In this document: positions 6,570 through 25,510 of the stretch, in pieces
Position numbering within the stretch: the first letter of the stretch is position 1
Layout: each line of letters begins with the position of its first letter
Origin: Desulfuromonadales bacterium
GTDB taxonomy: Bacteria; Desulfobacterota; Desulfuromonadia; Geobacterales; Pseudopelobacteraceae
Direction: 5' to 3'
DNA: 64,000 bases
NCBI GenBank assembly: GCA_013377095.1
Contig: JACAAY010000004.1
Location: 1 to 64,000 of the forward strand
The notes under the pieces: generated by a model
What the model was told of the DNA's origin: nothing
What the model saw: the letters and a program-made list of their open reading frames with translations, nothing else
Databases searched by the model: none
Position numbers and translations under genes: made by a program

Positions 6570-7379
6570 ATGACAACATCCAAAACGAAAATCAGGAAAC
6601 CATTGCAATCCGCCCCCGACATACGCAAGGTGATCTATGGCTGGCTGCCGGATATTCCGGATAATCGCGATCACCTGTATGGCGTCGTGCGGAAAATTCC
6701 GGCAAAACTTCCGGCCAAGATTGATCTGCGTAAAGGGTGCTCACCGGTTGAGGATCAGAAGGAGTTGGGCAGCTGCACAGCCAATGCCCTGGCAGGCGCC
6801 CTTGAGTTTCTGATGAACAAGGACAAGGCCCCCTATGTGGACATAAGCCGCCTGTTCATTTATTACAACGAGCGGGTCATGGAAAATTCAATCAGAACCG
6901 ATTCCGGGGCCATGATCCGTGACGGCATCAAGACGCTGGTCAAACAGGGGGCCTGTTCCGAGAAGAGTTGGCCCTACGACATCACCAGGTTTGCCAGTAA
7001 ACCTCCCAAACCCTGCTACACGGAAGCTCTGGAGCATCAGATCCTCTCCTACGCCCGCATCAACACCCTTGACGAAATGCGCGCCTGCCTGGCAGAGGGC
7101 TATCCCTTTGTGTTCGGCTTTTCCGTGTACGAAGGTTTTGAATCACAGCAGGTGGCCAAGACCGGAGTCCTGGATTTGCCAAAACAGGGAGAAAAGATGG
7201 TTGGCGGCCATGCGGTGCTGGGGGTCGGCTATGATGATGCGGCCAAACGCTTCATGGTACGCAATTCGTGGGGTACGGACTGGGGCAAAAAAGGTTATTT
7301 CACCATGCCCTACGAGTATGTGGCGGATCGAAACCTGTCCGATGACTTCTGGACGATTCGCCGGGGTAAAAACATGTAG
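6570..7379 (+). CDS. Papain-family (C1) cysteine peptidase
   Basis: A 269-residue protease domain. All catalytic residues of papain enzymes are visible: oxyanion Gln63 and nucleophile Cys69 in DQKELGSCTANAL, His214 in GGHAVLGVGYD, and Asn232 in RNSWGTDWG. The first 50 residues (ending IDLRKGCSPVEDQ) are a short prodomain-like lead. There is no signal peptide, unlike the preceding secreted protein, so it should act in the cytoplasm or leave by another route. AGGAGGA precedes the ATG. It sits 44 bases after the DUF6345 gene and 36 bases before the glycyl radical enzyme gene, suggesting one transcript. Family assignment firm; substrate unknown. Confidence 0.88.
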   Translation: MTTSKTKIRKPLQSAPDIRKVIYGWLPDIPDNRDHLYGVVRKIPAKLPAKIDLRKGCSPVEDQKELGSCTANALAGALEFLMNKDKAPYVDISRLFIYYNERVMENSIRTDSGAMIRDGIKTLVKQGACSEKSWPYDITRFASKPPKPCYTEALEHQILSYARINTLDEMRACLAEGYPFVFGFSVYEGFESQQVAKTGVLDLPKQGEKMVGGHAVLGVGYDDAAKRFMVRNSWGTDWGKKGYFTMPYEYVADRNLSDDFWTIRRGKNM

Positions 7380-7415: not shown

Positions 7416-9896
7416 ATGGCTACCATATCGTTACCCGACATCAGGTTGGCGGAGTACGGTCTCGACAACCTTCCCCTTCTCCAAAAACTCCGCGAACGAA
7501 ACTTCGCTGCCAAGACTGAAGTATGTATCGAACGTGCCAGATGCGTTACCCGGTATCTGGAAAAAGAGTCCTCTCCCCATGAGCCGATGGAAACCAGGTA
7601 TGCGGGAGCGGTCAACCATTTTCTGACCAACAAGGAAGCGCTCTTTTTCGACGACAACCTGCTGGCGGGAACGACAACCTCGAAATATTTCGGCGCCCCG
7701 GTCTATCCGGAGTTGACCGGCCTGACCATCTGGCCGGAACTGGACACCATGAGCAGCCGCGCCAAAAACCCGCAAACCATCTCTCCCCAGGAGGCGGAAG
7801 AGCTCAATCTTGAGATTTTCCCCTACTGGATGGAGCGCAACATCCTGGAGAAGACCAGGTCGAAATTCAACAACCCCCCCAGCATGAAGCTTTTCGAGCG
7901 GATTGTCTTCTTCATCGCCAGCAAAGCCGGCACCATTTCCCACACCGTCCCCTGTTATTCACTGGCGCTGGAAAAAGGATTGGAATTCATCGTTAGCGAA
8001 GCGGCCCGCCATGCCGGAGAGCTACAGGCAAAGGGCAGCCTGAGCGCGGATGAAACGGAGCAACTCTCCTTATACCAGGCTGTTCAGACCGCCCTAAAGG
8101 GCATCGTCGCCTATGCCGGCAATCTGAGCACAAGAGCAGCGCACCTGGCACAGATCGAAACCGACCCCGACCGAAAAACAAACCTGCTGGCCATGGCCGA
8201 AGTCTGCGCCCAGGTCCCGGCAAAACCGGCCCGCACGTTCAGGGAGGCGGTCAACGCCCTCTGGCTGCTGCAGGTGGGCATCCATGCCGAGAATATCAAC
8301 ATGGCCATCAGCCCCGGCCGACTCGACCAGATCCTCTACCCCTACTATCTCCGCGACATATCCAATGGCGCCCTCACCACCCGGGAAGCGCTGGAGATCA
8401 TCGGCTGTCTCTGGCTGAAACTCAACGACAACACCAACCTGGTCCCCGAAACTGCCGAGGAGCTGTTCGGCGGCGCGGGAACGGTCCCGGCCGTAACCGT
8501 CGGCGGCATTGACAACACTGGTGAGGACGCGGTCAACGACCTGACCTACCTGATGCTCAGGGCAACCGAACTGCTCAGTTTACGGGACCCCAGCGTGAAT
8601 GCCCGCTTCCACTATGAGAAGAACAGCGCTGCATACCGTGACAGGGTGGCCGAGGTGATTGCCAGCACCAAGGCTGTTCCCGCCTTTTACAATGACGCGG
8701 TTGCCATACGGACTCTGGAGAACCAGGGGATCGCAACCGAACACGCCCGCGACTACGCCATCATCGGCTGTGTCGAACTGTCAGCATCCGGCCGGAGTTA
8801 CGACGCCTCCAGCTCGATCATGCTCAACCTGGTTTCCGCCCTGGAACTGGCCCTCTACAACGGCAAGCGCCCGGTGACCGGCGACGAGCAGATCGGTCCC
8901 GAAACGGGCGATCCGGCAACGTTTGCCGGTTTCGCCCCCTTCTGGGAGGCATTCAAGGCCCAGCTGGCATGGGTTATCGGGCATGCGGTCCAGCTGAACG
9001 AGATGATGGGCCGGACCCACCAGGAATGCCTTCCCACCCCCCTCTTGTCGGCGCTTTTCGAGGGGCCCATGGAAAAGGGCAAGGATCTCATCTTCGGCGG
9101 CGCCCTCTACAACTCCTCGGGCGCCACCCACATCGGTTTTGCCGACACGGTGGACTCCCTCAATGCCATTGAAAAAGCGGTCTTTATCGACAAAAAATAT
9201 ACCTTCGACCAGATCCTGCAGGCCATGAAACGGGATTTTAACGGCGATGACCCGCTGCATCTCTATCTTCTCAACAGAACACCAAAATACGGCACCGACG
9301 ATGCCATCGCCCGCAAAAACGCACGCAACCTGATCGGATTTCTCTTTGAAACCTATCAGGGGTATGTCAACTACCGGGGCGGCAGGTATCGCCCGGCCTA
9401 CTGGACCATGACCAACCACGCCGGTCAGGGCAAACTCTCCGGAGCGCTGCCCAACGGCAGAAAAGCAAACCGGCTCCTGGCCAGCGGCATCACCCCGGTC
9501 TCCCAGGCAGCGAGCGGACTGGCCGCCTGCCTGAACGCCGTGGCCTCCATCGACCCGTTGCATATCCCTGGTGGCGAGGCTTTCAATCTGAAATACCCGG
9601 CCATTGCAAATCGGGACGATCTCCAGAAATTCAGCCAGGCCATCGAAGCCTATTTCCGCGCCGGCGGCCTCCATATCCAGTTCAACATTCTCTCCTACGA
9701 GACACTCCTGGACGCCAAACAGCATCCGGAAAACTATCCCCACCTGCTGGTGCGGGTTTCGGGGTATTCGGCCTATTTCAAGGATCTGACCGACACCATG
9801 AAGGAAGAGATCATCACCAGAACCGCCTACGATATCCGCAGTGGCCAGGCGGTACCGTTTCCCGATGCCCAACGATCCATGCTGCCGTTCGAGTAA
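7416..9896 (+). CDS. Glycyl radical enzyme (pyruvate formate-lyase superfamily), substrate unknown
   Basis: An 826-residue enzyme with both hallmarks of the family. The thiyl-radical cysteine is in IIGCVELSASG (Cys452, with Glu454), and the glycyl radical loop is RVSGYSAYF (Gly783, 44 residues from the C-terminus). Cys-x-Glu rather than Cys-Cys rules out pyruvate formate-lyase. It fits the dehydratase, C-N lyase and decarboxylase branches (glycerol dehydratase, CutC, HypD, 4-hydroxyphenylacetate decarboxylase). The N-terminal part (KYFGAPVYPEL, ISHTVPCYSLAL) matches no branch I can name, so I give no substrate. The enzyme is oxygen-sensitive and cytosolic. It needs the activase at 10362, and the SCP2-like gene between them is an unusual partner. 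Confidence 0.9.
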   Translation: MATISLPDIRLAEYGLDNLPLLQKLRERNFAAKTEVCIERARCVTRYLEKESSPHEPMETRYAGAVNHFLTNKEALFFDDNLLAGTTTSKYFGAPVYPELTGLTIWPELDTMSSRAKNPQTISPQEAEELNLEIFPYWMERNILEKTRSKFNNPPSMKLFERIVFFIASKAGTISHTVPCYSLALEKGLEFIVSEAARHAGELQAKGSLSADETEQLSLYQAVQTALKGIVAYAGNLSTRAAHLAQIETDPDRKTNLLAMAEVCAQVPAKPARTFREAVNALWLLQVGIHAENINMAISPGRLDQILYPYYLRDISNGALTTREALEIIGCLWLKLNDNTNLVPETAEELFGGAGTVPAVTVGGIDNTGEDAVNDLTYLMLRATELLSLRDPSVNARFHYEKNSAAYRDRVAEVIASTKAVPAFYNDAVAIRTLENQGIATEHARDYAIIGCVELSASGRSYDASSSIMLNLVSALELALYNGKRPVTGDEQIGPETGDPATFAGFAPFWEAFKAQLAWVIGHAVQLNEMMGRTHQECLPTPLLSALFEGPMEKGKDLIFGGALYNSSGATHIGFADTVDSLNAIEKAVFIDKKYTFDQILQAMKRDFNGDDPLHLYLLNRTPKYGTDDAIARKNARNLIGFLFETYQGYVNYRGGRYRPAYWTMTNHAGQGKLSGALPNGRKANRLLASGITPVSQAASGLAACLNAVASIDPLHIPGGEAFNLKYPAIANRDDLQKFSQAIEAYFRAGGLHIQFNILSYETLLDAKQHPENYPHLLVRVSGYSAYFKDLTDTMKEEIITRTAYDIRSGQAVPFPDAQRSMLPFE

Positions 9897-9930: not shown

Positions 9931-10365
9931 ATGCCTGACAATTTTATTTTTGATGAGATGGTTAAAAAGTTTACCAGCTGCATGGAGTCGGAACTGGCCG
10001 AGGACTTTCTTATGATTCTTCTGCAACTGATGGGTATCGTCCTGCTGTTGAACAGCGACTACCGGCGTAACATCATCGGTTTCAAGGGGCGCTACCAGTT
10101 CCGGAGCAGTGACGACGCCATTACCGTTGCCGCGGTATTTGACAACGACAGCCTGAGCGTCAACGAGGAGCTGATCGAGGATCCGAACATCTCCGTCACC
10201 TTCAAGGACGGCAAGGCGCTCATGAACTACATCCTCTCACCAAAACCGGATGTGCTCGGCTCCATGCTCCGCCAGGAGGTCAGCCTGGACGGAAACCTCA
10301 ACTACCTGTACCGCTTCGCCTATATGGCGAAGCGGCTGCAACTGATGGCCAGCGGAGGCCTATGA
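9931..10365 (+). CDS. SCP2-like lipid-binding-domain protein, putative GRE partner
   Basis: A 144-residue protein. ITVAAVFDNDSLSVNEEL, ISVTFKDGKALMNYIL, PDVLGSMLRQEVSLDGNLNY and the ending LYRFAYMAKRLQL resemble the strand-and-helix order of sterol carrier protein 2 domains, which hold hydrophobic ligands. The N-terminal 50 residues are helical and hydrophobic (FLMILLQLMGIVLLL) and could be a membrane anchor or an amphipathic cap. AAGGAG precedes ATG 9931, and the stop overlaps the activase start as ATGA, so the two are translationally coupled. I infer a role in presenting a hydrophobic substrate to the glycyl radical enzyme. The domain call is from memory of the fold pattern and moderate. 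Confidence 0.55.
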   Translation: MPDNFIFDEMVKKFTSCMESELAEDFLMILLQLMGIVLLLNSDYRRNIIGFKGRYQFRSSDDAITVAAVFDNDSLSVNEELIEDPNISVTFKDGKALMNYILSPKPDVLGSMLRQEVSLDGNLNYLYRFAYMAKRLQLMASGGL

Positions 10366-11270
10366 GCAGGCAGCTGCCATTGCTCCTCCCGCTCCACCGT
10401 TTCGCCCTTGATGACGGGCCGGGGATACGAACCACAGTCTTTTTCAAGGGGTGCCCCCTTTCATGCGTCTGGTGCCACAACCCGGAAACCATATCAACGG
10501 AGTGCGAGATCGCCTGTTACCCGCAACGCTGTATCAGCTGCGGCGAATGCCTGGGTGTCTGCCCCACGGGCGCCATAACACTTGAGCCGTTGGTCCGGAT
10601 TTCACGCACGACCTGCACGGCCTGCGGCAGATGCGCCGAGACCTGTCCGGCCCTGGCGCTGGAACGAAGGGGGGAGTATCTTCCAGCGGGCGAACTGGTA
10701 GCGCTCCTGCTGCGGGACCGGTTGTTTTACGAGTCTTCCGGCGGTGGCGTAACCTTTTCCGGTGGAGAAGCGACGGTGCACATGGACTACCTGGAGCAGG
10801 TGCTCCGGGATCTGAAGCAACGGGGAATCCACACTGCTCTCCAGACCTGCGGACTGTTCGATTTCGAGCACTTCTCCACCCGGCTCCTCCCCAGGATTGA
10901 CCTGATATTCTACGACATCAAGCTGCTCGACCCTGATCAGCACCAGCGCTTCACCGGCAGGGATAACCGCCCCATACTCGACAATTTTGTCCGCTTGACC
11001 GGTATGGCCCGGGAGAAGCTCATGCCAAGGGTACCGCTGATCCCCGGGATTACGGCCACCCGGCACAATCTGACCGGCATCGCCTCGTTTCTGAGAGGGC
11101 TTGGTTATGGGCAGGCCGAACTGCTTTCCCATAATCCCGGCTGCCGGGAGAAGAGACTGGCAATCGGCAGGGAGATACCAGAGGAACCTACTCCGGATAT
11201 GATGACCATTGAGGATGAGAGCAGATGCCGGGAACTCTTTTTTTCAGCACTTGCCGGAGAACCGGCATAA
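10362..11270 (+). CDS. Glycyl radical enzyme activase (PflA family, with ferredoxin insert)
   Basis: A 302-residue radical SAM activase. FALDDGPGIRTTVFFKGCPLSCVWCHNPE (in parts: DDGPGIRTTVFFKGCP, then CVWCHNPE) carries the Cys-x3-Cys-x2-Cys cluster motif. An insert with two further 4Fe-4S motifs follows (CISCGECLGVCP and CTACGRCAETCP), as in activases of glycerol dehydratase, CutC and benzylsuccinate synthase but not in PflA itself. GGGVTFSGGEA is the usual SAM-binding glycine strip. It should abstract hydrogen from Gly783 of the enzyme at 7416. It overlaps the SCP2-like gene by four bases and lies 56 bases before the DUF6765 gene. Confidence 0.93.
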   Translation: MSRQLPLLLPLHRFALDDGPGIRTTVFFKGCPLSCVWCHNPETISTECEIACYPQRCISCGECLGVCPTGAITLEPLVRISRTTCTACGRCAETCPALALERRGEYLPAGELVALLLRDRLFYESSGGGVTFSGGEATVHMDYLEQVLRDLKQRGIHTALQTCGLFDFEHFSTRLLPRIDLIFYDIKLLDPDQHQRFTGRDNRPILDNFVRLTGMAREKLMPRVPLIPGITATRHNLTGIASFLRGLGYGQAELLSHNPGCREKRLAIGREIPEEPTPDMMTIEDESRCRELFFSALAGEPA

Positions 11271-19185: not shown

Positions 19186-19815
19186 TCAGCTCTCTTTCTG
19201 AAACGGATCCCAGATCAGCCGCGGGTCAAAGCGCATGGCGGCAAACATGGTCAGAACGACAACAGCTCCAAAGGCGATTGCTCCCGGACCGGCCTTTACC
19301 GTGGCCAAAGACTGCATCTGCACCAGTGCAGCAAGTAACGTAACCACATAGATATCCAGCATCGACCAACGGCCGACCAGTTCCACCAGGCGATACAGAC
19401 GCGTCCTTTCAGCAGGGTGGTCCTTGGAACGTTTCTGAACGGAAATGAGCAGATAGGTCAGGGCGATCAGCTTGAACAGCGGCACCATGATGCTGGCAAC
19501 AAACACAATCACGGCGATACCCATGGAGCCGTTCTGCCAGAGATGAACCACACCGCTCAGGATGGTGTCCTGGCGGTAACTGACCAGGGAACCGGTTTCC
19601 ATGATGGTCATCATGTTGGCGGGCAGATAGAGGATGTAGGCTGTTATCAGCAGCGCCCAGCACTGCTCCGTACCATGGGGCTTGCGAGAATGAAGGCGCG
19701 CGGTGCAGCGTGGGCAATGGATTTTGGCGGGATCATCCCCCGGACGTGAAACCAGGCCGCAGACATGACAGGCGCGGAACCCCAGGCTGGCTGCGGTTAT
19801 GCCGTCATACCTCAT
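19186..19815 (-). CDS. pqiA: PqiA-domain membrane protein, second copy
   Basis: 209 residues with an N-terminal zinc-ribbon (CHVCGLV and CPRCTARL) and about four membrane helices: LLITAYILYLPANMM, IAVIVFVASIMVPLFKLIALTYLLI (in parts IAVIVFVASIMVP and LIALTYLLI), SMLDIYVVTLLAALV and AIAFGAVVVLTMFAAM. It corresponds to one half of enterobacterial PqiA, which carries two such units in one chain. Its start overlaps the stop of the other pqiA gene as ATGA, so the two halves are coupled and probably assemble into the full inner-membrane component feeding PqiB. Confidence 0.88.
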   Translation of the reverse strand: MRYDGITAASLGFRACHVCGLVSRPGDDPAKIHCPRCTARLHSRKPHGTEQCWALLITAYILYLPANMMTIMETGSLVSYRQDTILSGVVHLWQNGSMGIAVIVFVASIMVPLFKLIALTYLLISVQKRSKDHPAERTRLYRLVELVGRWSMLDIYVVTLLAALVQMQSLATVKAGPGAIAFGAVVVLTMFAAMRFDPRLIWDPFQKES

Positions 19816-20444
19816 GACTGTTCTCCCTCATCGCCATGCCAGTCCAGATGCGCCCACACATCACGCGGGTTGAATGTTGCGGCTACCGCGGCCAGCAGCA
19901 GCGTCACACCGCCGAACGACCAGAGCGCAACCCCCGGAATGATGCGGAAGTTATCGGTCAGTTTTACCAGGGCCACCAGAATGCCGAGCATGAACACCTC
20001 GACCATGCCCCAGGGTTTAATACTCTGCAGAAAACGCATCAGCAGGGCCAGACCGGGCGGCACATGGCCAAGCCTGAGGGGAAGCAACAGATAGATCAGC
20101 AGGGATAGTTCCAGGGAAGGGACAATAATCGTGGTGACGAAGACAAGCAGCGAGATAAAGTGCATCTTCTGATCCCACAGGGAACTGACCGCCCCGTACA
20201 GGTTAGTGGCGCTGCCGTTTCCCTGGGACTCGATCCCCAGGATCGGATGGATATTTGCAATGACAAACAGAAGCGCAGCAGCCAGACTGAGAGCCAGCGT
20301 ACGATAGAGGCTGTCGGTGCTGTTACGGTAGAGCTCCGCGCCACAGCGCCGGCACACGGCGGTGCGACCGGGTTCAAGATCGATTTCGCGCAGCAGCAGA
20401 TCGCATTCGGGGCAGGCGACCAGTGGTTTTGGGGAATTTTCCAT
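19812..20444 (-). CDS. pqiA: PqiA-domain membrane protein, first copy
   Basis: 210 residues from the ATG at 20444. A zinc-ribbon with CPECDLLL and CRRCGAEL is followed by membrane helices LALSLAAALLFVIANIHPIL, FISLLVFVTTIIVPSLELSLLIYLL (in parts FISLLVFVTTIIVP and LELSLLIYLL), and VEVFMLGILVALVKL. The open frame extends to 20525 but that extension is basic and lacks the family start; AAGGGA lies about six bases before 20444. It is the first gene of the four-gene pqi operon, whose promoter must lie between 20445 and the nap terminator region. Confidence 0.85.
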   Translation of the reverse strand: MENSPKPLVACPECDLLLREIDLEPGRTAVCRRCGAELYRNSTDSLYRTLALSLAAALLFVIANIHPILGIESQGNGSATNLYGAVSSLWDQKMHFISLLVFVTTIIVPSLELSLLIYLLLPLRLGHVPPGLALLMRFLQSIKPWGMVEVFMLGILVALVKLTDNFRIIPGVALWSFGGVTLLLAAVAATFNPRDVWAHLDWHGDEGEQS

Positions 20445-20536
20445 GGGTATCCCTTCACTGTTGTGCGCCCATACCCTACCACATGAGCTTTCCGCACGTC
20501 GCCTTCTTTTTTTGGCAGTTCTCACCTGGAAACAGA

Positions 20537-20566
20537 CAGGCCCCGAACCGAGTGGAACGGGGCCTG
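20537..20566. terminator. Hairpin at the end of the nitrate operon
   Basis: CAGGCCCCG and CGGGGCCTG form a nine-base perfect stem around a 12-base loop, 31 bases past the stop of the octaheme cytochrome gene. On the minus strand it is followed by a T-rich but interrupted stretch. It lies between the nitrate operon and the pqi operon, which run in the same direction. Confidence 0.65.
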
Positions 20567-20596
20567 CAGTTCATCGGGATGTTTCCGTAAACCTGG

Positions 20597-22207
20597 TTAC
20601 TTCTTTTCGTCCTTTTTGACCACCAGCATGGCGTCGTTGAGCATCTTGACGCCGGCTTTGGACGCCGCAATGGAGCCGGTCAGACTTTCGCGGGCCAGAT
20701 CAGGATTATGAAAACCATCCGAGTTCTCGGCGGTCCAGTACTCCCACAGGACATGGGCTTCTTCATGTTTCTCGCGGGCCTGTGCCAGCACGCTCTCGGT
20801 CACGCCCATGCGCTGGGCGGCGGCATAGCTGTCGATCAACTGTCCCAGCCAGTACTCTGACTTGCGCATCTTGCCCTTGATGTAATTCTGCACCGCCTCG
20901 ATCTGATACAGTTTCTGCTCAACCGTGTTGGTGGGATGGCACCCCAGGCAGGACTCCTTGATGTGGTTCTTGGGACGGATCACGCCATGGCTGGAGAACA
21001 GTTTGCCGTTTTTCCCCTTCTGTTTCGGCATGTGGCACTGATGGCACTGCACGCCGGCCTTGTCGTGAATACTGCCGGCATAGGTTTCTGTCTCGGGGTG
21101 CTGGAACTTGATCAGACGAGCGCCGGTCACGGCATGTTTGAAGTCGTAGAAATCAAGCTCCTTGTAGTGTTTGAGCAGCTGCAGGGAGTTCTTGAGCGGG
21201 AAGTGGTTGGTGCGCTGATCGTCGTAAGCGACCTTTTTGCCATCGCTCCACTGACCACCGGCATTGCAATTGTACTCCACATGGCACTGGGCGCACATCA
21301 GGCGGGAATCGGTCTTTTCCATCACGCCGATCTTGCGGAAACCATCGCGGAATGAAACCACCTTCAGGTCGGTTTTTCCGCCCTTGGCAAAGATGTTTCC
21401 GGCGCGGTCCCTTTCAACGGCCTGGATCAAGGCATCACGCACCACGCGGGGCTGGGTGCCATGGGGGTCATGGCAGTGGATACAACCCACGGCATTGTTG
21501 GTGTCCTTGGCAACTGCAACCACATCCGAGGAGCGGTCCCATTGTGCCTTGGGATCCTTGTCACCCATGAACTTCCATTTCAGGACATGGTCGGAGGTCT
21601 TACACTGGATGCAGGTCGGGTTGCCGGCCATGGCGGTTTCGGGCAACTTTTTGCCGGTGTCGGTCAGCACATCCCAGGTCTTGCCAGACGTGTCAACATC
21701 CTTCCAGCCATGTTTGAACTGGAAACGTCCACCCTGGAAACGGTCAACCACAAACTGGTCGGTAACCATGAAAGCGTGGCCGCGTGGTTCAGCATGTTCA
21801 ATGGTAAAACCGTGTCCGGCCAGCAGCTTGTCCTGCAGGGGGGAGCGGCCGGTGGGGGTACCCTTTTCCTTGCGGGCAGGGGCCTCATAGCTCATCTTGA
21901 AGAAGCTGTCATACTGCTGCCGGTGGCATTTGGCGCACAGGGCCTGGTCGATAATCGTAACCGGCTTGTTCTTTTCCGGGTCCTTCATGTGCGCATCCAT
22001 CTTGTCATGGCAGGTTGTGCAGGCCAGGGAGGCGTGCTTCGAGCCCTCCTTGAGCGCCTTGACCTCTTCGTGGCACTCGTAACACTGGGCCCTTCCATCG
22101 TTGAGCTGCTTGGCGGCCGGCTTGGCCTTGGCTGCCCCGGACGGCATTGCCAGAAGCGCTCCCAGCCCGGCTACAACAACTGCCACCGCTACTCTCTGTT
22201 TCCACAT
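20597..22207 (-). CDS. Octaheme cytochrome c nitrite reductase (ONR/TvNiR type)
   Basis: A 536-residue precursor with a Sec signal (VAVVVAGLGALLAMPSGAAKA). Eight haem motifs are seen: CYECH (42), CTTCH (63), CAKCH (91), CIQCK (199), CIHCH (242), CAQCH (305), CHQCH (388) and CLGCH (420). The fourth is Cys-x2-Cys-Lys, the catalytic haem type of ammonia-forming nitrite reductases, and its place as haem 4 of 8 matches Thioalkalivibrio octaheme reductase rather than five-haem NrfA. Candidate active-site residues are Arg142 (EPRGHAF), Tyr312 and His370 (FQHPE). Tyr312-Asn-Cys314 repeats the Tyr-x-Cys pair that forms a thioether bond in TvNiR. It should reduce nitrite to ammonium in the periplasm, on nitrite made by NapA of the same operon. 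Start ATG 22207 has AAGGAG; the longer frame lacks a signal peptide. Confidence 0.88.
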   Translation of the reverse strand: MWKQRVAVAVVVAGLGALLAMPSGAAKAKPAAKQLNDGRAQCYECHEEVKALKEGSKHASLACTTCHDKMDAHMKDPEKNKPVTIIDQALCAKCHRQQYDSFFKMSYEAPARKEKGTPTGRSPLQDKLLAGHGFTIEHAEPRGHAFMVTDQFVVDRFQGGRFQFKHGWKDVDTSGKTWDVLTDTGKKLPETAMAGNPTCIQCKTSDHVLKWKFMGDKDPKAQWDRSSDVVAVAKDTNNAVGCIHCHDPHGTQPRVVRDALIQAVERDRAGNIFAKGGKTDLKVVSFRDGFRKIGVMEKTDSRLMCAQCHVEYNCNAGGQWSDGKKVAYDDQRTNHFPLKNSLQLLKHYKELDFYDFKHAVTGARLIKFQHPETETYAGSIHDKAGVQCHQCHMPKQKGKNGKLFSSHGVIRPKNHIKESCLGCHPTNTVEQKLYQIEAVQNYIKGKMRKSEYWLGQLIDSYAAAQRMGVTESVLAQAREKHEEAHVLWEYWTAENSDGFHNPDLARESLTGSIAASKAGVKMLNDAMLVVKKDEKK

Positions 22208-22236
22208 ACACGTTTCTCCTTTCTTTGAATTAATAC

Positions 22237-22584
22237 TTATTTGGGTTCCATGCGCAGCGCTTTCGGCGTCACCGGGCAAACATATTCACAACTGCCGCAA
22301 CCGCTACAGAGCATTTCGTCGATCACAACTCCGGTTCCCATGACCACGCTGATTGCCCCGGTCTGGCAGCGTTCCACACAGGAGAAGCAACCGCAATTTT
22401 TTGCCGGGCATTGCCGGTTGTCAACCCTGGCTACCACCTGCTCGTCCGGGGCAAGCCTCCCTTCCGGCTGGGCAGCGGCAGGTGGGGTGCCCAGAGCATC
22501 CCGTGCGGTCCCGCCCACCTTCAGCAGGCTTTCTCCCAGGGAGAACAGTCCCAGGCTGAAGAACTCCTTGCGGGAACAATTCAT
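22237..22584 (-). CDS. NapF/NapG-like protein with two 4Fe-4S clusters
   Basis: 115 residues. The N-terminus MNCSRKEFFSLGLFSLG resembles a twin-arginine signal with RK in place of RR, followed by a hydrophobic stretch. The cluster motifs are CPAKNCGCFSCVERC (Cys59, 64, 66, 69, 73) and CSGCGSCEYVCP (Cys93, 96, 99, 103). Its size fits a NapF-like ferredoxin, but NapF is cytoplasmic and linked to NapA maturation, whereas an exported form would be an electron carrier. The sequence does not decide between them. Its ATG overlaps the napB-like stop by four bases, and the cytochrome gene follows at 29 bases. Confidence 0.7.
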   Translation of the reverse strand: MNCSRKEFFSLGLFSLGESLLKVGGTARDALGTPPAAAQPEGRLAPDEQVVARVDNRQCPAKNCGCFSCVERCQTGAISVVMGTGVVIDEMLCSGCGSCEYVCPVTPKALRMEPK

Positions 22585-22886
22585 TGTTTTCCGTCTTTGG
22601 ATGCGTCCTCTTTTACGTCACCCTGGACATGACACTGGGTGCAGTTGAGCCGCTCGGGATGATCGCTAACCGGGGCATTCCGCACCCCGGTCCGATGGCA
22701 GATAGTACAGGCAGCCCCATTCTGGTCCGGCTTGACCGCATGGGGTATCAGGGGTGGATTATCGGAAGAGCGCTGCGCATCAGCCGCATAATCGGGCGCC
22801 GGTGGGACAGCCGCAAAAACGGGGGCCGTAAAAGCCAGGCAGGCAACCACACACGGCATCAGAATGGGATATAAAATCAGTCTCAT
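22581..22886 (-). CDS. napB: NapB-type dihaem cytochrome c
   Basis: 101 residues with a Sec signal (PILMPCVVACLAFTAPVFAA). Two haem motifs, CTICH (60) and CTQCH (82), sit in the NapB context: PPLIPHAV before the first, and APVSDHPERLNC between them. NapB passes electrons to NapA in the periplasm. It is shorter than common NapB (about 130-150 residues). It lies 16 bases after napA and overlaps the ferredoxin gene. Function from family and position is strong. Confidence 0.85.
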   Translation of the reverse strand: MRLILYPILMPCVVACLAFTAPVFAAVPPAPDYAADAQRSSDNPPLIPHAVKPDQNGAACTICHRTGVRNAPVSDHPERLNCTQCHVQGDVKEDASKDGKQ

Positions 22887-22902
22887 CAGGGACCTCCTTG
22901 GG

Positions 22903-25221
22903 CTAAGCCTTCTCGATCTTCACCGCGCACTTTTTGAAATCCGGCTCCTTGGAGAGCGGATCAAAGGCGTCGATACAGAGTTGGTTGATCAGTTTCGTTT
23001 CGTCGAAAAAAGCCACGAACAGGTTGCCCGGTTCCGGCTTGCCCCGTCCGTCAATCTCGGCCTTCAGCACGATCGAACCGCGCCGGGAACTGACCCTGAT
23101 CTGCTGGTGGTTGGTAATCCCCAGGCGCTTGGCATCGGCAGGGTGAATCTCGCAGATCGCTTCGGACACGGCCCGCTTCAACTCCGGCACACGACCGGTC
23201 ATGGTGCCGGTATGCCAGTGTTCCAGCACGCGACCGGTACAGAGCCAGAAGGGATACTCCCTGTCCGGTGATTCCGCAGGCGGCTCATAGGGGCGGAACC
23301 AGACCGAGGCCCTGTTGTTGGCCCCCTTGTAGAATTTGACCCCCTCCCCCGCTTTGACATAGGGATCGTACCCCTCCACATAACGCCAGCGGGTCTCCTG
23401 GCCGTCCTGTTTCACCGGCCAGCGCAAACCACGTACGCCGGCATAGGTTTCATAGGGCGCCAGATCCTTGCCCACACCCAGGGTAAACGTACGGTACTCT
23501 TCCCACATCTCCCGGTAGAAACCCTTCTCGCTGTAGGGGAAGAGGTGGCCCAATCCAAGGCGCCTGGCAAACTCGATCAGCTGCCAGGTGTCCTCCCTGG
23601 CCTGGCCGGGGGGGGCGATCATCTTGAACCAGTGCTGGGTGCGGCGCTCCGTATTGCCGAAAACCCCCTCCTTTTCGACCCATGAGGCGGAGGGGAGGAT
23701 TACGTCGGCGATCTCGGTTGATTTGGTGGGGTAGATGTCGGAAACCACGATAAACGTTTTTTTGTCTTCCGCTGCCTTGCGATAGCGATTCAGGTTGGGG
23801 ATGGACTGAAACGGGTTGGTGCACTGGATCCAGACACACTTCAGCTCGCCGCGGTCAATGGCCCGGAACATCTCCATGGTATGCAGACCAACCTTGGGGG
23901 ATATTTTGCCGGGGTCGATTCCCCAAATTCCGGCGGTCTTCTTGCGGTGAGCCTCGTTGGTGACCACCATATCGGCCGGCAGACGATGGGCAAAGGTGCC
24001 CACTTCACGAGCGGTTCCGCAGGCCGAGGGCTGGCCGGTCAGGGAAAGCGGGTTTTCACCCGGCTTGCAGATCTTGCCGGTCAAAAGGTGCAGGTTGTTG
24101 AGCAGGTTGTTGACCCAGGCTCCCCGCACATGCTGGTTGACCCCCATGGTCCAGAGCGAGTTGACCTTGCGGGATTTGTCACCGTAGATCCGGGCCAGCT
24201 CTTCGATCTTTTTGGCCGGGATACCGGAGAGCTTTTCGCCCCACTGGGGTGTGAACTGTTTCATCAGTTCCTTGTATTCGTCAAAGGTCAGGCTCTTGAC
24301 ATCCGCCGGTGTTTCGTTAAAAACCTCCTTGTCCTTCAGGCCATAGTGGGCATTTTCCTTGCCGCGCTTGAAAGCAACATTGCGGGTGACAAATGCCTCA
24401 TCGTACAGCTTGTCCCGCAGAATGACATGGATGATGGCATTGATGGCCGCCAGGTCACCCTGGGGCTGCATGGGAATATAGTCGTCCGCCATCTGGGTGG
24501 TGCGGGTCCTGCGGGTGGCGATATCGATCAGTTTCACCCTGGAGTTTTTGAGTTTGTTGGCGATCAGGCGGGAGAAAAGCACCGGATGGGCTTCGGCCAT
24601 GTTGGCGCCCCAGAGGATATAGGTATCGCCCAGGTCCAGGTCATCATAACAGCCCATGGGTTCATCGGCACCAAAGCTGGTCATAAAGCCGACCACGGCG
24701 GATGCCATGCAGAGCCGGGCATTGCACTCCACATTATTGGTACCGATGCCCCCCTTGAAGAGCTTGGAGGCGGTATAGCCTTCGAAAACAGTCCACTGTC
24801 CCGAGCCGTAGATGGCAACCGAGTCCGGGCCATGGGACGTGATGGCCTCCCTGTATTTGGAAGCGATCAGGTCAAGCGCCTCGTCCCAGCTGGCTTCGAC
24901 CATTTTGTTGCCCTTGCGGATCAGCGGTGTGGTCAGGCGGTCCTTACCGTAGAGCGCCTTGGACAGGAAGTAGCCTTTGATGCAGTTGAGCCCCTTGTTG
25001 ACCGGCCCGGCCGGGTCACCCTTGGTGGCCACGATTTTGCCCCCCTTGACTCCCACCAGCACACAACAGCCAACGCCGCAGTATCTGCAGGGGGCCTTGC
25101 CCCAGGTAATCCCCGCCTCAGCAGCATCAGCGCCCTCGGGGCGCACCACGGAGACTCCGACTGCCGCAAACGCCGCCGCAGCCGCGCTGGCCTTGATAAA
25201 ATCCCGTCTGGTTAATCCCAT
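22903..25221 (-). CDS. napA: Periplasmic nitrate reductase catalytic subunit NapA
   Basis: 772 residues. The Tat signal has TRRDFIK (residues 4-10) before the Ala-rich hydrophobic stretch. The 4Fe-4S ligands are Cys45, Cys48, Cys52 and Cys80 (Cys-x2-Cys-x3-Cys-x27-Cys). The molybdenum ligand is Cys171 in NARLCMASAV, the NapA signature (NARHCMASAV in well-studied enzymes); NarG uses Asp and formate dehydrogenases use selenocysteine or cysteine in another context. It binds bis-MGD and reduces nitrate to nitrite in the periplasm. GGAGGA precedes ATG 25221. The open frame reaches 25329, overlapping napD, but only the shorter start gives a Tat signal. Confidence 0.95.
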   Translation of the reverse strand: MGLTRRDFIKASAAAAAFAAVGVSVVRPEGADAAEAGITWGKAPCRYCGVGCCVLVGVKGGKIVATKGDPAGPVNKGLNCIKGYFLSKALYGKDRLTTPLIRKGNKMVEASWDEALDLIASKYREAITSHGPDSVAIYGSGQWTVFEGYTASKLFKGGIGTNNVECNARLCMASAVVGFMTSFGADEPMGCYDDLDLGDTYILWGANMAEAHPVLFSRLIANKLKNSRVKLIDIATRRTRTTQMADDYIPMQPQGDLAAINAIIHVILRDKLYDEAFVTRNVAFKRGKENAHYGLKDKEVFNETPADVKSLTFDEYKELMKQFTPQWGEKLSGIPAKKIEELARIYGDKSRKVNSLWTMGVNQHVRGAWVNNLLNNLHLLTGKICKPGENPLSLTGQPSACGTAREVGTFAHRLPADMVVTNEAHRKKTAGIWGIDPGKISPKVGLHTMEMFRAIDRGELKCVWIQCTNPFQSIPNLNRYRKAAEDKKTFIVVSDIYPTKSTEIADVILPSASWVEKEGVFGNTERRTQHWFKMIAPPGQAREDTWQLIEFARRLGLGHLFPYSEKGFYREMWEEYRTFTLGVGKDLAPYETYAGVRGLRWPVKQDGQETRWRYVEGYDPYVKAGEGVKFYKGANNRASVWFRPYEPPAESPDREYPFWLCTGRVLEHWHTGTMTGRVPELKRAVSEAICEIHPADAKRLGITNHQQIRVSSRRGSIVLKAEIDGRGKPEPGNLFVAFFDETKLINQLCIDAFDPLSKEPDFKKCAVKIEKA

Positions 25222-25261
25222 CGCATCCTCCTTGCCGCAAATGTCGAAAAAAAGGAGCAGC

Positions 25262-25510
25262 CTATGACCGCTCCTCCTCAAAATGTTCAAAATTGTGGTA
25301 TGCCAGCTGCACCGACACAACCCCTTCAATTCCCTGAAGCTCCGTCACCAGCTCAACCTCCCCGTCAACCGTATCAGCCTCAATCACCGCCACAATCCGG
25401 CCATCGGCCAACACACCATGCACCTCGACACCACTGTTTTCAGCAATTTTCAGCGCAATTTCGTCAGCGCTTCCCGCGGCACATGTCAGCACAATTCCCG
25501 ATACAGGCAT
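25262..25510 (-). CDS. napD: NapD, NapA signal-peptide chaperone
   Basis: 82 residues with the small ferredoxin-like fold of NapD: PVSGIVLTCAAG at the start, EVHGVLADGRIVAVIEA in the middle and the second half VELVTELQGIEGVVSVQLAYHNFE (in parts VTELQGIEGV and VQLAYHNFE). NapD binds the Tat signal of NapA until the cofactor is inserted. GGAGGAG precedes the ATG. It is the first gene of the operon, 40 bases before napA. Confidence 0.9.
   Translation of the reverse strand: MPVSGIVLTCAAGSADEIALKIAENSGVEVHGVLADGRIVAVIEADTVDGEVELVTELQGIEGVVSVQLAYHNFEHFEEERS

Follow-up and report, generated by a model that had tools for sequence, protein, structure and literature searches.

The window analyzed here, a 64-kb stretch of DNA from a Geobacter-group bacterium of soil or sediment, carries on its minus strand a five-gene operon (25510-20597) with the order napD-napA-napB-ferredoxin-ONR, ONR being an octaheme nitrite reductase. 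On balance, we favor reading this operon as a Geobacterales Nap-ONR module for the respiratory reduction of nitrate to ammonium that has lost NapGH and would be fed by a shared dehydrogenase of the ImcH type. The Nap-ONR module itself is already known, and the missing NapGH is its unusual part; as far as the literature was searched, no description was found of a recurrent loss of this presumed donor.

An earlier note on this DNA had placed five genes here, with a 4-base overlap between napB and the ferredoxin gene and with NapC, NapGH, and NrfH all missing. All five genes were located on the minus strand by open frames, profile matches, and heme motifs (Table 1); the overlap is present as ATGA, and none of the three donors is encoded at the locus. 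The other genes are separated by 40 bp (napD-napA), 16 bp (napA-napB), and 29 bp (ferredoxin-ONR), and all five reading frames are intact. On the 5' side of the operon, prxQ and yceI are divergent and are followed by a minus-strand permease gene, and on its 3' side are the pqiA-pqiB-pqiC genes; there is no nitrogen gene among these flanking genes. The end hairpin described in the same note is real and stable, but it has no T-run, so that scoring did not recognize it as an intrinsic terminator. A search of the 64-kb window against Rfam gave no match. The same operon was expected in a genome of the same genus (G001), and this expectation had to be rejected; at an otherwise syntenic site (L122), ONR adjoins prxQ, and both nap and the ferredoxin gene are absent.

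Table 1. Features of the nap-ONR operon and its flanks (positions in the window)
Feature	Position	Strand	Description
napD	25262..25510	-	82 aa, NapA-specific chaperone; Pfam NapD E 1.9e-19, above cut-off
napA	22903..25221	-	772 aa, periplasmic nitrate reductase catalytic subunit, Tat signal TRRDFIKA
napA-napB junction	22887..22902	-	16 bp; site of napGH in relatives; without napGH remnant here
napB	22581..22886	-	101 aa, diheme electron-transfer subunit, Sec-type signal, CTICH and CTQCH
NapF-like short ferredoxin	22237..22584	-	115 aa, two [4Fe-4S] motifs, N terminus S-R-K-E-F-F
ONR/TaNiR-type octaheme nitrite reductase	20597..22207	-	536 aa, 7 CxxCH and CxxCK, Sec-type signal
HcpR-type CRP/FNR-family palindrome TTGATTTCAGTCAA	25695..25708	-	divergent prxQ-napD promoter region; sole match in the 64-kb window
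3' hairpin after ONR	about 20536..20567	-	86-nt fold, -35.3 kcal/mol, z -2.98; without T-run

NapA scores above the equivalog cut-offs of both NF010055 (1040.9 bits; cut-off 904) and TIGR01706 (993.6 bits; cut-off 930.55), has the twin-arginine signal and the one N-terminal 4Fe-4S motif expected of a NapA, and can be aligned with 2nya, a structure of a periplasmic nitrate reductase (E 1.5e-258). NapB has two CxxCH motifs and the expected position in the operon, and its sequence shares 64% and 61% identity with NapB proteins from relatives that have napGH; its match to Pfam NapB (E 1.2e-4, 22.6 bits) lies just below the cut-off of 25.1 bits. The octaheme cytochrome is, by every available sequence test, a member of the ONR family. 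Its heme motifs follow the order of three CxxCH, CxxCK, and four CxxCH, which is the published signature of ONR (PMC10716430), and the closest solved structure is the octaheme nitrite reductase 8rv0 (E 9e-245, 816 bits), the next being eight-heme nitrite reductases such as 2zo5 (E 5e-162, 543 bits). The protein contains the motifs EPRGH at 140, CIQCK at 199, EYNCN at 311, and KFQHPE at 367; the positions of the active-site Arg, Tyr-x-Cys, Lys, and His, whose catalytic roles are taken from published work (PMC12285233), are conserved in alignments with 8rv0 and 4q0t, and a His lies between heme sites six and seven. The enzyme shares with TvNiR of Thioalkalivibrio nitratireducens the eight hemes, the CxxCK at heme 4, and the aligned Tyr-x-Cys, Arg, and His, but it is clearly further from TvNiR than from 8rv0 (543 versus 816 bits). 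The proposal that periplasmic nitrite can be both produced and consumed by the products of one operon is supported at the level of sequence; nitrate would be reduced there by NapA, and the nitrite would pass within the same periplasm to ONR for reduction to ammonium.

Nap is paired with ONR in Trichlorobacter ammonificans, and the gene for the ONR of T. lovleyi is immediately downstream of nap (PMC11972089; also PMC13390470). The window operon resembles the Nap-TaNiR module of these two species in that its nap genes are directly followed by an ONR of the TaNiR/TvNiR kind, but it differs in the absence of NapGH, the presumed donor of that module to NapAB and TaNiR. A 2023 paper on T. ammonificans reportedly proposed that NapGH passes menaquinol electrons to both NapAB and ONR (TaNiR). 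The corresponding locus of genome G022, which we take to be T. lovleyi, has the order prxQ-napDAGHB-ferredoxin-ONR.

In a survey of 141 Geobacterales genomes, napA of this kind was present in 44, and all 44 loci were classified. The napGH genes are present in 26 of the 44, between napA and napB where the locus is readable, whereas four (G005, G012, G017, and G024) have nrfHA after napAB in place of napGH and 14, including the window's own genome, have neither; a whole-genome search for NapH was concordant with this 26/4/14 split. ONR is found in eight of the 14 donor-less loci (G000, G015, G029, G039, G043, G044, G088, and G114). The order in relatives is napD-napA-napG-napH-napB-ferredoxin-ONR, with napGH filling roughly 1.5 kb in place of the 16 bp of the window. 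When mapped on a tree of NapA, the distribution of napGH requires nine changes, eight of these being forced by well-supported branches. The window falls within a clade of 11 rows (99% SH-aLRT), nine of which bear napGH, and the sister group of this clade consists entirely of napGH-bearing rows. A single clade of all napGH-less rows is rejected (p-AU 3e-70), as is one of the 14 donor-less rows (p-AU 1e-37); a single loss common to the window and G081 is not rejected (p-AU 0.063). In addition, the isolate Geobacter sp. FeAm09 (G029) retains between napA and napB a decayed NapH fragment of 73 residues (L125, about 6890-7090), which is 37-41% identical to five NapH queries (best E 9e-14) and ends in a scrap resembling the NapH C terminus. 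A NapH-like scrap of 13 residues in G043 (E 0.001) is too weak to count alone. Since the tree requires eight to nine changes, the window is nested within a napGH-bearing clade, and a napH fragment persists in FeAm09, the absence of NapGH from the window is, as judged from these comparisons, a secondary loss, and napGH has been lost repeatedly in the order. The independent losses from operons that otherwise look intact indicate that many of these operons can do without NapGH. The sole nitrate-reduction genes found in the FeAm09 genome paper were ammonium-forming ones (PMC7849695).

A different arrangement occurs at the four nrfHA loci (L128, L129, L130, and L131), where napDAB are followed by nrfH and pentaheme nrfA and NapGH is absent. 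Both these operons and that of the window lack NapGH and place the gene for an ammonia-forming nitrite reductase after napDAB, but the four include nrfH as a dedicated donor and their reductase is the pentaheme NrfA; NrfH in these operons may serve both reductases. An nrfH or other cytochrome donor gene adjoining the operon was considered for all 18 napGH-less loci and was rejected in each except the four with nrfHA.

The earlier note anticipated a quinol dehydrogenase encoded elsewhere and recommended a search of the full genome for NapC/NrfH/CymA and NapGH. The assembly containing the window (5.26 Mb in 241 contigs, rated 100% complete, with 5.56% contamination) was searched in this way, and its sole NapC/NirT-family proteins are two of the ImcH type, with 524 and 515 residues, encoded on other contigs. 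This agrees with the expectation, as does the lack of a dedicated donor in the operon. A napGH or nrfH gene just outside the window, which the note would have counted against its proposal if cotranscribed, did not appear in the rest of the assembly: family and protein searches revealed no NapGH above cut-off, no dedicated short NapC, and no NrfH, and the ONR search revealed no pentaheme NrfA. Both ImcH-type proteins have an N-terminal NapC/NirT domain (PF03264, 34.9 and 41.5 bits; cut-off 24.1) and seven heme motifs, and the label ImcH-type refers to these two features.

ImcH oxidizes menaquinol, operates at potentials above -0.1 V, and passes electrons to PpcA (PMC12307469), properties that suit nitrate and nitrite as acceptors. 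A precedent is provided by CymA of Shewanella oneidensis, a member of the NapC family that has been proposed to substitute for both NapC and NrfBCD/NrfH (PMC4572631). As in the window's genome, the nitrate and nitrite reductases of S. oneidensis have no dedicated NapC, NrfBCD, or NrfH, and one NapC/NirT hub has been proposed (PMC4572631); there, however, NapGH is present in the Nap-beta operon and the nitrite reductase is the pentaheme NrfA, whereas here the reductase has eight hemes and the proposed hub is of the larger, seven-heme ImcH type. A NapC-family match is present in all 18 napGH-less napA genomes versus 21 of the 26 that bear napGH, a difference that is not significant (Fisher p 0.07) and comes from related genomes that are not independent; ImcH-type proteins are near-universal in Geobacterales. 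The properties of ImcH, the CymA precedent, and the match in 18/18 napGH-less genomes are the grounds on which an ImcH-type hub is proposed. On the model of CymA, the proposed supplier of Nap and NrfA in S. oneidensis, menaquinol would be oxidized by the shared inner-membrane NapC/NirT dehydrogenase of the ImcH type, present in two copies, which would pass electrons to both NapB and ONR, either directly or via periplasmic c7-type cytochromes. The shuttle step is uncertain, because no clear single-domain PpcA-type cytochrome was found in the genome, whose c7 repeat proteins contain 12, 9, and 18 hemes (L167, L168, and L170).

An alternative quinol dehydrogenase for Nap and ONR is an orphan protein of 521 residues, encoded on another contig of the same genome (C22; L120, 4945-6510), in which a NapH-like membrane part is joined to a NapG-like ferredoxin part. 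The fusion occurs in 104 of the 141 genomes and in 16 of the 18 napGH-less napA genomes, but its scores (NapG 86 bits, NapH 74.5 bits) are far below the cut-offs for the two families, and it is also common in genomes that lack napA, so that it is expected to have a duty of its own. Moreover, it was not found in the napGH-less genomes G081 and G088 (85% and 90% complete), its neighbors in the window's genome are not nitrogen genes, and the association between loss of napGH and the fused proteins is not significant (p 0.16). Recruitment of the fusion as the present donor to Nap and ONR therefore seems unlikely.

It is a little less probable still that some other complex oxidizes menaquinol and feeds NapB and ONR, for example the 9-heme cytochrome b proteins that resemble CbcL. 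Two genes of this kind are present in the genome (L118, 6462-8315, and L184, 796-2670), one overlapping imcH and the other adjoining the gene for a nine-heme c7 protein. Nevertheless, CbcL is described as being used for low-potential acceptors and ImcH for high-potential ones (PMC12307469), and nitrate and nitrite are high-potential acceptors.

The promoter region bears on regulation and on a further alternative, that the napGH-less operon is a decaying relic or serves in detoxification of nitrite or NO instead of respiration. The palindrome TTGATTTCAGTCAA between prxQ and napD has a core one base off the HcpR motif published for Geobacter, wyTTGACnnnnGTCAArw; nrfHA and nar belong to the regulon of this motif (PMC1274295). 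HcpR-type sites (TTGAC-N4-GTCAA) lie within 350 bp upstream of napD at 19 of 42 loci, a count in which L127 is entered as negative, versus 0.024 expected per locus. Expression of the operon is probably under the control of a regulator of the HcpR/FNR type, and, with the enrichment before napD, nap operons would join the predicted HcpR regulon. This nitrosative-stress type of site, the visible napH pseudogene of FeAm09, and the same-genus genome with ONR at the equivalent site but without nap are compatible with decay or detoxification. On the other hand, the five frames are intact and, in comparison with napGH-bearing relatives, NapA has a dN of about 0.09 and ONR one of about 0.12, with synonymous sites so near saturation that dN/dS is of limited use; the remaining genes of the operon thus look maintained. 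Operons without napGH also persist in 14 genomes on many branches. Decay or detoxification is accordingly an improbable account of the operon, on a par with feeding by CbcL-like proteins.

The small 4Fe-4S protein of the operon was suggested earlier as a possible point of electron entry, a role that does not stand up well. Although the ferredoxin is retained in all napGH-less operons without nrfH (in G088 as a longer, NapF-like form), homologues are found in nearly every nap operon, whether or not it bears napGH, and also beside ONR genes without nap. In the protein of the window there is neither a Tat nor a Sec signal, nor a strongly hydrophobic signal segment, nor a membrane span; the N-terminal motif [S/T]-R-K-x-F is present in 38 of 38 homologues with a recognized motif and R-R in none of them (0/38). 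It gave no match to NapF (TIGR00402) at E 1e-3, but over 50 residues it shares 56% identity with the ferredoxin of G044, which is NapF-like and longer. The short ferredoxin corresponds to the C-terminal half of such longer proteins, which in some relatives contain more clusters and match NapF with 57.7 bits (TIGR00402 cut-off 102.2). NapF of Escherichia coli is a cytoplasmic maturation factor. Because the ferredoxin resembles NapF, has no export signal, and is found beside NapGH as well, electron entry through it is very unlikely, and a cytoplasmic role in maturation of NapA is, from its sequence, the most likely one. Finally, the assembly is fragmented (241 contigs) and slightly contaminated (5.56%), but an absence of NapGH that is only apparent has almost no likelihood, given that 16 bp separate napA from napB within one 98-kb contig, that NapGH is found nowhere in an assembly rated as complete, and that G015 and G029, two genomes of a single contig each, are likewise napGH-less.

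In soils and bioreactors, Geobacterales are prominent among the bacteria that reduce nitrate to ammonium, and the present picture of their Nap-ONR systems relies on NapGH. The repeated loss of NapGH suggests that the pathway is powered from the general respiratory electron supply. More tentatively, and with somewhat less confidence than in the shared ImcH-type donor for this operon, the nitrate-ammonifying chain of many Geobacterales may have been rewired to the menaquinol-cytochrome pool of extracellular electron transfer, with one hub of the ImcH type splitting electrons between metals and nitrate. If such a hub exists, nitrate respiration and extracellular electron transfer would compete for the same electrons, which would bear on the effect of nitrate on iron reduction and on current production. 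The availability of FeAm09 as a cultured isolate makes the question of the donor for Nap and ONR testable.

Two other regions of the window may be mentioned. A glycyl radical enzyme and its activating enzyme are encoded on the plus strand (7416-9896 and 10362-11270), with an unassigned small frame between them, and the glycyl radical enzyme did not reach the cut-off of any specific family. PqiA is usually one two-domain protein. In the window, it is split into two overlapping half-size genes on the minus strand (19186-19815 and 19812-20525), which precede pqiB and pqiC.
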